The notes beneath the pieces are model-generated. The model did not search any database and had not been told where the DNA came from. It saw only the letters and a program-made list of their open reading frames with translations. Shown one piece after another: positions 24,155 through 52,859 of a DNA stretch of 64,000 nucleotides. Both the position numbers and the translations under genes were made by a program. The stretch is from Flexivirga endophytica (GTDB lineage: Bacteria > Actinomycetota > Actinomycetes > Actinomycetales > Dermatophilaceae): contig NZ_BMHI01000004.1 of the NCBI RefSeq assembly GCF_014640635.1, positions 248,001 to 312,000 of the forward strand, read 5' to 3'. How positions within the stretch are numbered: position 1 is the first letter of the stretch; every line of letters begins with the position of its first letter.

Positions 24155-24601
24155 CTAGGCGTTGTGCGTGGGCGTCGCGGTGTATCCGCCGCTGACTTGG
24201 ATGCGACGGCCGGTGATGGAGTCGGGTTCGATACGCAGGACAGTCGGCTTCGGGCCGTCCTGCCACGGAAAGACCGGCAGTTGCAGGGCGTCGAGCACCT
24301 CGTGCAACCGCTCGACCGATCTGGCGGTTCCCTTGACGACGACGCTCCACGCCTGCGCGCTGTCCGCGTCGTATCCGTCGACCTCGAACGCGACCGGGTG
24401 TCGGTCGGCGGCGGCGAGTTTGGTGCCTGCACCGGTTCGCAGCACGATCGTGCCGTGGTCGACCAGATGATTGACCGGGAAGACATCGGGGCGGCCGTCG
24501 ACGCTGACAGCGAGGCGGCCGACCGGCACAGATCGCAGCAGCGCCCAACAGTCCGACACCGGTAGGTCGGTTGTCTGTGAGTGTTCGCTGGTGGTGTTCA
24601 T
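24155..24601 (-). CDS. Pyridoxamine 5'-phosphate oxidase-fold protein, paralogue 1 of the island
   Basis: A 148-residue split-barrel flavin-binding fold. The core reads GRLAVSVDGRPDVFPVNHLVD, then IVLRTGAGTKLAA and VAFEVDGYDADS. Similar proteins occur in the mycobacterial DosR regulon (for example the Rv3129 type); cofactor may be FMN, F420 or heme and the reaction is unknown. Two close paralogues lie at 28149 and 47622. No Shine-Dalgarno sequence precedes the ATG, while a DosR-like box is centred 42-43 bp upstream, which suggests a leaderless transcript. The gene is divergent from a universal stress protein. Confidence 0.85.
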   Translation of the reverse strand: MNTTSEHSQTTDLPVSDCWALLRSVPVGRLAVSVDGRPDVFPVNHLVDHGTIVLRTGAGTKLAAADRHPVAFEVDGYDADSAQAWSVVVKGTARSVERLHEVLDALQLPVFPWQDGPKPTVLRIEPDSITGRRIQVSGGYTATPTHNA

Positions 24602-24636
24602 GCCGTAAGGGTCCCGCGGCCGGCCGCTGGTGGGCA

Positions 24637-24650
24637 GGGCCCTTGGTCCC
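24637..24650. promoter_or_regulatory. DosR/DevR-like box, PNPOx-side
   Basis: GGGCCCTTGGTCCC, on the minus strand GGGACCAAGGGCCC, palindromic at all but one outer pair. Its centre is 42-43 bp before the start codon of the gene ending at 24155. It is 25 bp, about two and a half helical turns, from the second box at 24662. Confidence 0.7.
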
Positions 24651-24661
24651 GGGTCACAGTC

Positions 24662-24675
24662 GGGACCTTTGGCCC
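24662..24675. promoter_or_regulatory. DosR/DevR-like box, USP-side
   Basis: GGGACCTTTGGCCC, preceded by TC. It lies 71 nt before the ATG of the universal stress protein gene at 24747, with an ordinary leader and a GAAGGAG ribosome site in between. It shares the divergent promoter region with the box at 24637. Confidence 0.7.
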
Positions 24676-24746
24676 TCGTTCAGTCCCCCGGGGCGAAGGA
24701 ACCTGGAGTGGTGAACCACCCGCGAACACCACTGAAGGAGAACGCC

Positions 24747-25655
24747 ATGACCATTCACGTTCCGACCGACGCGATCGTCGTCGGCGTCGACGGCTCGGAG
24801 CAGAGTTGGGAGGCATTGCGATGGGCTGCACGGGCGGCCGACGCAGCCGACCGACCGCTGCATCTGTTGCACGCCGAGGGCGCACTGATGTCGCCATACC
24901 AGATGACCGTCACCGAGGACCCGATCGACAACATCTGCGATGAAGCACTCGGTGTCGTGGCCCATCATCACCCCAACCTCGCTGTCAGCTGGTCGCAGCC
25001 GTCCGAGTCGCCGGTCCCGGCCCTCGTTGACGCGTCGGCAGTGGCGAGCGAGATCGTGCTGGGGTCTCGTGGCACAGGAGCAGTGCGTGGCGCGGTCCTG
25101 GGGTCCGTGACGACGCAGGTCTCCGCATCGGCACATTGCCCCGTCGTCGTCGTCCGCCATGCCCTCTCGGACCGTCAGCAAAGGGGTTCGATCGTCGTAG
25201 GTGTCGACGCCCGGCCAGACGGGGTAGCCGCGCTGGACTTCGCCTTCGCGGAAGCGGAGCGCCGGGGGCTACCGCTCGTAGCGGTCCTGTGCTGGCAGTT
25301 GGATCGGATGGACTTCGCCAGTGGCGTGCCGATGCCCGGAGGGGACATGAAATCCATCCATCGGCACTACCGAACCATTCTCGAAAGCGCCCTGGTCGAC
25401 GGTCGCTCGCGGCATCCGAAGGTCCAGGTGACAGGCGATGTCGTGTGCGCGCCCTCCACGAGCGCGCTCGTGGAGCGCAGTGCCAGCGCATCTCTGCTCG
25501 TGGTCGGCACCCGCGGGCATCACGAGCTGGCCGGTCTTGTGCTGGGGTCCGTCAGCCAAGGTGCGATACGGCGCTCTCACTGCCCGGTCGCCGTGGTGCC
25601 GGCGGTGCACATCGGGCACGCCAAGCGCACCAATCACCAGCACAGCACAGCGTGA
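24747..25655 (+). CDS. Tandem universal stress protein (UspA), two domains
   Basis: A 302-residue protein with two Usp domains. ATG 24747 follows GAAGGAG. Domain 1 (about residues 7-140) begins [16 protein letters not shown] and ends with the ATP-binding pattern [15 protein letters not shown]. Domain 2 (about 150-290) begins [19 protein letters not shown] and ends [17 protein letters not shown]. The G-2x-G-9x-G(S/T) pattern is intact in both, so ATP binding is likely, as in mycobacterial Rv2623. Tandem Usp proteins are core members of DosR regulons. It is followed 67 nt later by devS. Confidence 0.92.
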
Positions 25656-25722
25656 AGCCCGCTGGGTGCGCGATTCCCACCGTTCTTCGCCGGATGTTCG
25701 TCGCGATCCCTACGCTGGCAAC

Positions 25723-51822: not shown

Positions 51823-51836
51823 GGGACCTTTGGCAC
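51823..51836. promoter_or_regulatory. Orphan partial DosR/DevR-like box
   Basis: GGGACCTTTGGCAC, two bases after the DUF1906 stop. No credible plus-strand gene follows within 1 kb and the next minus-strand gene ends here, so a function is doubtful. The second half-site is degenerate. Confidence 0.3.
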
Positions 51837-51925
51837 CGGCGCCCGTGCGATCGGGCTCATGGTCTGCCGCTACGTTCCCGCGCTGGCAGACGTGATGAGT
51901 GCCCACCGACGGCGGGGCACTCCGC

Positions 51926-52375
51926 CTAACACTCGGCGATTTCGGTGTGCCGGTCGCCGTCGGCCGGCGTCGGCAGCACGACCACCGGACAAGCTGCCAT
52001 CCGCGAGCAGTACTCGCTCGTCGAGCCGAGCGCCGCATGCCGGATCGAGCCGACCCCGTGACTGCCGATGACGAGCAGGCTCGCCCGCTGGGAGCGAGCC
52101 ACCAGAACCTCCTCGGGGACGCCCGTCTCGATCTCCTCCGAGATCGGTGGCCCGTCGGACACATCGCTGCAGGCTTCCTTGACCACTTGGGCGCGGAGAT
52201 CTTCCGCGGCCTGACCAGTGGCGGCACCGTACGAGCCGGCGTGCCACACCGTGACGGCCTCGATGGCGCAGCCGCGTAGAGACGCCTCGCCGATGGCCCA
52301 GCGCATCGCCCTCAGCGACCCCGTTGACCCATCGACGCCTACGACGATGACGCGGTTGTCGTGCTCGATCGACAT
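51926..52375 (-). CDS. Single-domain universal stress protein, copy 4
   Basis: A 149-residue Usp. ATG 52375 is preferred: GGAGGG lies 6 nt upstream, whereas the earlier ATG at 52381 is too close to it. It begins [20 protein letters not shown], and the ATP motif is GSHGVGSIRHAALGS, intact. This is the only one-domain Usp of the island. It lies 20 nt downstream of the SHOCT gene on the same strand and probably shares its promoter. Confidence 0.9.
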   Translation of the reverse strand: MSIEHDNRVIVVGVDGSTGSLRAMRWAIGEASLRGCAIEAVTVWHAGSYGAATGQAAEDLRAQVVKEACSDVSDGPPISEEIETGVPEEVLVARSQRASLLVIGSHGVGSIRHAALGSTSEYCSRMAACPVVVLPTPADGDRHTEIAEC

Positions 52376-52395
52376 GTTCATCCCTCCATCATGCT

Positions 52396-52626
52396 TCAGC
52401 GCCGCAGCACGGACTGTTCTCTGAGGAACTCGTCCACGTCGATCTCTCCGCGGGCGAGGCGCAGTCGCAGCGCACGCTCTGCCTCGGACAGAGGTTCCTG
52501 CGATCGATCCCGATAGCTCGCCCGGATCAGCACGATCGTGCAGGCGAGGAGCGCCACACCGACCACGAACCCGCAGACCGTCATCCAGGCGTCGGCGTTG
52601 TCGACCCCATCTGACCAACCCATCAT
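52396..52626 (-). CDS. Small membrane protein with SHOCT domain
   Basis: A 76-residue protein from ATG 52626, which has AGGAGG 5 nt upstream. It has one membrane helix (WMTVCGFVVGVALLACTIVLI, about residues 15-35) and a C-terminal SHOCT motif (LRLRLARGEIDVDEFLREQ). SHOCT domains are oligomerisation or tethering modules. It is the first gene of a pair with the single-domain Usp, and a DosR-like box sits 59 nt upstream. Confidence 0.8.
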   Translation of the reverse strand: MMGWSDGVDNADAWMTVCGFVVGVALLACTIVLIRASYRDRSQEPLSEAERALRLRLARGEIDVDEFLREQSVLRR

Positions 52627-52685
52627 CACGAACCTCCTACTGAACGATTTGCGACCAGCCTGACTCTCGGACACCGAACGTCACA

Positions 52686-52699
52686 GGGTCGAAGGTCCT
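52686..52699. promoter_or_regulatory. DosR/DevR-like box for the SHOCT-Usp unit
   Basis: GGGTCGAAGGTCCT, minus strand AGGACCTTCGACCC. One arm retains GGTCC; the other is GGGTC. It lies 59 nt before the start at 52626. The rest of 52627-52859 shows no gene. Confidence 0.5.
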
Positions 52700-52859
52700 T
52701 GGGCAGTGCGTCGATTCCGCAGCGATGCCTACTGATTCGGCCGGTGTCACCGGCTCTACATGGCGTCGCGAAAGACTGCACATGTCCATAGCCGGTGCTG
52801 AGGCGGTTGAGAAGTTCGCCCCGCAGGATTGAAGGCGTAGCTCTGGAAAGGATTTCGTC

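Follow-up and report, generated by a model that had tools for sequence, protein, structure and literature searches.

The closest described relatives of the system considered here are the DosR/DevR (Rv3133c) regulon of Mycobacterium tuberculosis and the OsdKR island of Streptomyces coelicolor; the system itself is a two-component pair, DevS and DevR, and the genes around it in the actinobacterium Flexivirga endophytica. As described for S. coelicolor, in which OsdKR is the orthologous system, OsdR controls 20 of the 22 genes SCO0198-SCO0219, including those for universal stress proteins (Usp), PNPOx-fold proteins, a nitrate transporter and narGHJI; it binds in gel shifts to boxes of the kind reported below, and the usp and nar2 transcripts are lowered in an osdR mutant (PMC5069765). 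In the M. tuberculosis proteins, DosS His149 is described as the proximal haem ligand and Tyr171 as acting in ligand discrimination, the receiver residues named for DosR are Asp8/Asp9 and Asp54 (PMC4082495), and K179, K182 and N183 of DosR contact DNA (PMC5999986). The stretch that we analysed, called the window, comprises 64,000 nucleotides (contig NZ_BMHI01000004.1, positions 248,001 to 312,000; in our numbering G000:C4:248001-312000) of a 4.72-Mb genome that is 99% complete. G000 denotes this genome and G001, G002, G003 and G004 others of the same genus, and window positions are used unless a contig is given. Within the window, an island of ~28.5 kb (24155-52700) is very probably a low-oxygen regulon of the DevR/DosR (OsdR) type, gathered around its own two-component system. 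Sequence-level support for this reading comes from what the proteins are, from the residues of the haem pocket and of DNA contact, and from the boxes, with their positions and their reappearance in relatives.

The Flexivirga island shares with the M. tuberculosis regulon the type of regulator, its DNA-contact residues, the half-site and the haem-GAF type of sensor, and, as in M. tuberculosis, a usp gene comes first in the presumed regulator operon. It differs in having, among the matches listed, one DosT-like sensor in place of DosS plus DosT, in that many targets are contiguous, and in its gene order, devS coming before devR. With the OsdKR island it shares a contiguous set of sensor, regulator, Usp, alcohol dehydrogenase, nitrate transporter, PNPOx and narGHJI genes, and osdR is likewise boxed (PMC5069765); the present island adds two NarK copies and BON, Rv2525c-like, ABC and beta-CASP genes. 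An earlier note on this window had proposed a DevR-type dormancy regulon and singled out its contiguity. The proposal stands as regards the sensor-regulator pair, the promoter boxes and the boxes of relatives; contiguity is indeed present but is no special feature, because the OsdKR island, contiguous and tested, had already been published (PMC5069765). Contiguous devSR, nar genes and boxes also occur within about 10-30 kb in four other genomes (G014, G035, G057 and G022), whose gene orders and companion genes differ from those seen here; in G022, unlike in the present island, the nar genes have no box immediately in front. Our genome adds one more genus with an OsdR/DevR island, in this case one that has just one DosT-like sensor and carries additional cargo.

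DevS has the complete domain set (GAF-A, a second GAF, HisKA_3 and HATPase); its HATPase_c match of 23.1 bits is below the Pfam cut-off of 26.4, but the region nonetheless matches the ATPase chains 3zxq and 3zxo of DosT and DosS. The top PDB match of GAF-A is DosT (2vzw, E=3e-55), followed by DosS chains (3e-51 to 3e-50). Judged by motif and spacing, DevS retains the His of PPxHPPM and the Tyr 22 residues on that correspond to DosS His149 and Tyr171. At the position of DosS Glu87, which is Glu in chain 4ynr and Ala/Gly in 2y79/2y8h, it has Gly, as DosT does; a change of Glu87 to Gly or Ala is reported to yield a stable oxy complex, an interpretation that has been questioned and is disputed in part (PMC4082495). 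Among the matches listed in the genome there is no second sensor that covers GAF-A, the next match to DevS (E=1e-15) covering the kinase part only. We infer that DevS is a haem sensor kinase of the DosS/DosT type, with haem binding and inhibition by oxygen as predicted properties. The regulator, DevR, finds DosR (3c3w) at E=1e-62 and NarL (1a04) at 2e-29; aligned to 3c3w, its NarL-type receiver conserves Asp8/Asp9 and Asp54, and its recognition helix, AEKTVKNYV, is identical to that of DosR and includes Lys179, Lys182 and Asn183, in agreement with the earlier claim that the DNA-contact residues match.

The boxes (Table 1) are predicted sites, with mismatches counted against GGGACTWWAGTCCC, the consensus of the earlier note, at a cut-off of 3; we take this consensus to be the M. 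tuberculosis form of the box. Ten of the twelve palindromes that had been listed pass, among them all nine described as strong (with 30128 corrected to 30129), while 49574 (5 mismatches) and 52686 (4) fail the cut, so that only their position speaks for them. The island holds 12 sites, the remaining window 2 and 40 kb of flanks 1. The background of the genome itself, taken from 20 stretches of 20 kb on contigs C1-C5 with the box-bearing stretches L077 and L078 left out, is 4 sites per 400 kb, giving an island expectation of 0.29 (Poisson p about 2e-15), and the clustering claimed within 28 kb around devSR is thus confirmed. Shuffled versions of the window, which has 14 sites, hold a mean of 3.51 (standard deviation 2.05), and none of 100 reaches 14. 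As had been claimed, the boxes precede dormancy-type genes: for 11 of the 12, the box centre precedes a start codon by at most 150 bp. The zone so defined amounts to 13% of the island and relies on gene starts chosen by us. The remaining 3-mismatch site, 50836, absent from the earlier list, is intragenic and probably due to chance.

The presumed operon of the regulator is itself boxed, as 24637 and 24662 precede usp-devS-devR, a putative single transcript; the two box centres are 42 and 68 bp from the gene on the left and 104 and 78 bp from that on the right. This pair and the pair 41708/41740 are tandem boxes between divergent units, and GGGTCATTGGTCCC, a sequence at the 41708/41740 boxes, is found letter-identical near devSR in G001 and G002. 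The 49641 box, GGGACCTTCGGCCC, equals the core of the S. coelicolor narG2 (SCO0216) site, whereas the printed OsdR consensus, AGGGCCGATCGGCCCT, has a centre unlike that of the present boxes (PMC5069765).

The genome was also scanned with GGGACYWWNGKCCC, a pattern derived from the island and hence circular for this purpose. Four of its five exact places fall in the island (0.6% of the genome), and at no more than 1 mismatch there are 42 distinct places: the island has 12 of them, another part of the window 1, and 29 are outside. The enrichment that the earlier note had proposed to test by such a scan is seen at these two settings; looser ones do not exceed chance. Several points weigh against the regulon as we read it. 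With up to 2 mismatches, GGGACYWWNGKCCC has 370 + 343 matches in the genome, fewer than the reversed control (551 + 530), so that the loose matches are mostly background. For GGGACTNNAGTCCC with 3 mismatches allowed, the count is what chance would give (33 found, 39 expected); the two central W letters of the box matter. A matrix built on the S. coelicolor sites yields an enrichment of just ~2- to 4-fold, with intragenic matches too and weak separation, over a background of 480 kb that includes L077 and L078, picked for holding boxes. In DevS, the residue equivalent to DosS His89 is Ile, and among 20 nar loci of genomes that have DevS, 13 show no box near upstream (see below), which means that DevR does not invariably target nitrate reductase.

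Outside the window, a pair of boxes at G000:C6:200652/200689 precedes a short Rv2632c-like gene (PF08962, E=2e-6, above cut-off), for which reason the island is a main part of the regulon but probably not all of it. The family PF08962 presumably includes the DosR target Rv1738, and the characteristic DevR targets present are then Usp, PNPOx/nitroreductase and NarK/nar, with the Rv1738 type represented by this C6 gene. The gene (L077:10652-11124) is divergent from a DsbA-like gene. One other box-like place, C3:645293, lies deep within a long open reading frame and was taken as chance. A crude open-reading-frame rule for the 29 outside places was discarded: it called 26 of them coding, yet also 8 of the 13 window boxes, and was unusable because it took the leftmost start.

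Boxes recur with devSR in other genomes. The DevS proteins of G001 and G002 are 64-67% identical to ours, and their devSR genes stand amid boxed PNPOx and Usp genes, with 3 boxes within 3 kb and 7 within about 13 kb. In G001, G002, G021, G035 and G057, genes of the PNPOx, Usp or DoxX-like kinds have boxes in front of them; homologues of PNPOx1 are boxed upstream in the first four of these, and the homologue of the PNPOx gene 47622-48056 has a box directly upstream in G002. The gene 28664-29248, which we assume to be DoxX-like, has a 72% homologue near devSR in G002 and homologues behind boxes in G057 and G022. In G003 and G004, the best matches to DevS (E=1e-17) are confined to the kinase part, and no box cluster occurs among the 21 and 18 matches listed. 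Further afield, devSR has boxes nearby in, among others, Kitasatospora sp. MAA4 and two Arthrobacter contigs.

If these proteins act as their relatives do, the island would respond to hypoxia or nitric oxide (NO), with haem binding, signal, phosphotransfer, operon structure, promoter activation and physiology as predicted in what follows. In air, oxygen on the haem of DevS GAF-A would keep the kinase off; a drop in oxygen, or its replacement by NO or carbon monoxide, would cause DevS to autophosphorylate and pass the phosphate to Asp54 of DevR, dimers of which would bind GGGAC-NNNN-GTCCC-like boxes ~40-120 bp before start codons. DevR would thereby activate the usp-devS-devR-PNPOx unit itself, narK1-narGHJI and narK2; among its targets would likewise be the alcohol dehydrogenase unit, the BON gene, the Rv2525c-like gene, all three PNPOx genes and three of the Usp genes. 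Their products may serve nitrate respiration and redox balance in non-growth.

The part most worth following is the nar operon, which appears to have been re-sited. NarG is single copy in G000, G001 and G002, the first being 89-93% identical to the others, and was not found in G003 and G004 at E<=1e-50. In G001 and G002, narK-narGHJI occupies one syntenic locus without DevR boxes. To one side of it lie tatD and an rpf-like gene with transglycosylase-like and G5 domains, to the opposite side ksgA and a MobA-like gene. The counterpart in G000 has both flanks on contig C9, about 4.5 kb apart, and between them an open MobA-like gene and TauD-like, IclR-like and glyoxalase-like genes, with no nar; at the corresponding place in G003 and G004, both nar and the MobA-like gene are absent. 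DNA homology between the nar cassette of the window and G002 runs from 30343, 88 bp inside narK1, to 38376, the end of narI, and because it begins inside narK1, the promoter of narK1, with boxes 30036 and 30129, differs from that of the congeners. Upstream of narK the congeners carry a palindrome of another kind, TACTAC-N5-GTAGTA (G001:C34 about 181400, G002:C6 about 155400), which suggests that their narK is under another regulator; in look the palindrome is, we presume, BlaI/CopY-like.

Midpoint-rooted trees with few rows place G000 with G002 inside for NarGH (96/98), and G001 and G002 together for KsgA+TatD (99/96), transketolase (93/93) and DevSR (100/99). The NarGH tree would favour an arrival of nar in the island; the core and DevSR trees, together with boxed, linked nar in the outgroups G014, G035 and G057, would favour its departure from the island. 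A transfer from a G002-like relative fits as well. We tentatively propose, as plausible though rather short of probable, that narK-narGHJI (8 kb) changed both chromosomal place and regulator within one genus, and that such regulons condense by moving operons beside the regulator. If true, this would be a within-genus natural experiment on an operon coming under a regulator, in which alternative site, island site and two congeners can be compared.

A wider tally, in which about 4 kb upstream of narG were scanned, covered genomes whose match to DevS reaches E<=1e-40 and the remaining ones (G009:C132 and G047 left out; G005:-977, inside narK, and G017:-3118, far away, scored as unboxed). A box lies near upstream of narK or narG at 7 of 20 nar loci in the former and at none of 6 in the latter, which include G053 with its full-length 34% DevS match at 2e-30. 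Among the DevS-bearing relatives, nar is boxed at 4 of 5 loci linked to devSR and at 3 of 15 unlinked loci (one-sided Fisher 0.031, with kinship ignored).

These observations bear on the possibility that the DevR regulon consists of the core alone (usp-devS-devR, PNPOx and Usp genes), with nar, the alcohol dehydrogenase unit and BON as mere neighbours whose boxes are chance or decaying. Such a situation is just what G001 and G002 present in the stretches around devSR, where the boxes belong to the core, with nar elsewhere and unboxed, and some island sites do look like chance, namely the intragenic 50836 and the one at 51823 just behind a gene. We nevertheless consider it unlikely, since the best box of the window sits at narK1 (30129, 1 mismatch), 46107, 49641 and 50442 lie 42-98 bp from starts in an island where 0.29 boxes are expected, and nar is boxed in G014, G035, G057, G029, G006 and G052 as well as in S. 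coelicolor (PMC5069765). It is more improbable still that the pair is a NarL-type sensor system for nitrate/nitrite, or another member of the NarL family, whose operator is similar in appearance and which does not sense oxygen or NO: the regulator is of the NarL family, nar genes are adjacent and G000 has 47 GerE domains, but DevR matches DosR 3c3w at 214.7 bits and NarL 1a04 at 106, and the GAF domains of the sensor are nearest to DosT/DosS.

Table 1. Genes and predicted DevR boxes of the island (window positions; mismatches to GGGACTWWAGTCCC)
Feature	Position	Strand	Placement	Evidence
PNPOx-fold protein (Pyridox_ox_2; PNPOx1)	24155..24601	-		PF12900 E=1e-31
Two boxes, 24637 and 24662	24637..24675		common to PNPOx1 and usp-devS-devR unit	3 mismatches each; exact to GGGACYWWNGKCCC
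Tandem universal stress protein	24747..25655	+	first gene of presumed regulator operon	PF00582 E=1e-40, 2 stretches
devS, GAF-GAF-HisKA_3-HATPase sensor kinase, DosT-like haem pocket (predicted)	25723..27450	+		domains; DosT 2vzw
devR, NarL/DosR-type response regulator	27457..28110	+		DosR 3c3w E=1e-62
PNPOx-fold protein	28149..28595	+	final gene of presumed regulator operon	PF12900 E=3e-28
DoxX-like membrane protein	28664..29248	-		no Pfam or NCBIfam match; 72% homologue in G002
Probable box, absent from earlier list	29327..29340		86 bp upstream of DoxX-like 28664-29248	3 mismatches
Weak box	30036..30049		212 bp upstream of narK1, 104 bp upstream of leftward gene	3 mismatches
Best box of the window, GGGACTTCAGTCCC	30129..30142		120 bp upstream of narK1	1 mismatch
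narK1, nitrate/nitrite transporter	30255..31550	+		MFS_1 E=6e-42
narGHJI, respiratory nitrate reductase	31547..38378	+		TIGR01580, TIGR01660 above cut-off; PF02613, PF02665
usp3-usp2 and metallo-beta-lactamase/beta-CASP RNase-like gene	38418..41645	-		PF00582 in two genes; PF10996, PF07521
Two boxes, 41708 and 41740	41708..41753		between usp3 unit and alcohol dehydrogenase unit	3 mismatches each
Alcohol dehydrogenase, GNAT, ABC transporter ATPase, permease-like gene	41820..46074	+		PF08240, PF00583, PF00005; last gene without match
Box	46107..46120		98 bp upstream of narK2	2 mismatches
narK2	46212..47618	+		MFS_1; NarK subfamily model, below cut-off
Box inside narK2 end	47571..47584		44 bp upstream of next PNPOx gene	2 mismatches
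PNPOx-fold protein	47622..48056	+		PF12900 E=2e-25
Box	49641..49654		42 bp upstream of BON gene	3 mismatches
Triple BON-domain protein	49690..50370	+		PF04972, 3 stretches
Box	50442..50455		44 bp upstream of Rv2525c-like gene 50492-51820	2 mismatches
Protein with Rv2525c-like glycoside-hydrolase domain	50492..51820	+		PF08924 E=1e-49
Universal stress protein	51926..52378	-	sole upstream candidate is weak 52686 (4 mismatches)	PF00582

Island genes were named from Pfam and NCBIfam matches. Besides devS and devR, there are three PNPOx-fold and four Usp genes (three of the latter with two Usp domains). narGHJI is accompanied by two genes for NarK-like transporters, and a second ABC pair adds to the ABC genes that stand with GNAT in the alcohol dehydrogenase unit. 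Single genes code for the DoxX-like membrane protein, a beta-CASP RNase-like protein, the triple-BON protein and the protein with an Rv2525c-like glycoside-hydrolase domain; the gene 29271-29939 is without a match in either collection. Against the NarK subfamily model narK1 scores 175 bits, under the cut-off of 312; narK2, 78% identical to narK1 (blastp), has its own box and is followed by a boxed PNPOx gene. The beta-CASP RNase-like gene (38418-39956) ends the usp3-usp2 unit, and its best NCBIfam models, type VII CRISPR Cas14 and aCPSF1, are both far under cut-off. Directly behind the Rv2525c-like gene, at 51823, stands GGGACCTTTGGCAC, with 4 mismatches to the M. tuberculosis form and 1 to the island pattern.

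A check of the island for signs of a mobile element found no tRNA in the window and a G+C content of 64-70% along the whole length, without a sharp step. Directly beyond the right edge of the island (53126-55706), genes for ApbE, a ferric-reductase-like membrane protein and a NuoF-like (Complex1_51K) protein are consecutive and possibly form a small flavin electron-transfer module. Further on, an extra transketolase gene (57118-59544) is 63% identical to a copy at G000:C4:207289, which resembles the copies of congeners, and a third match lies at C4:330436.

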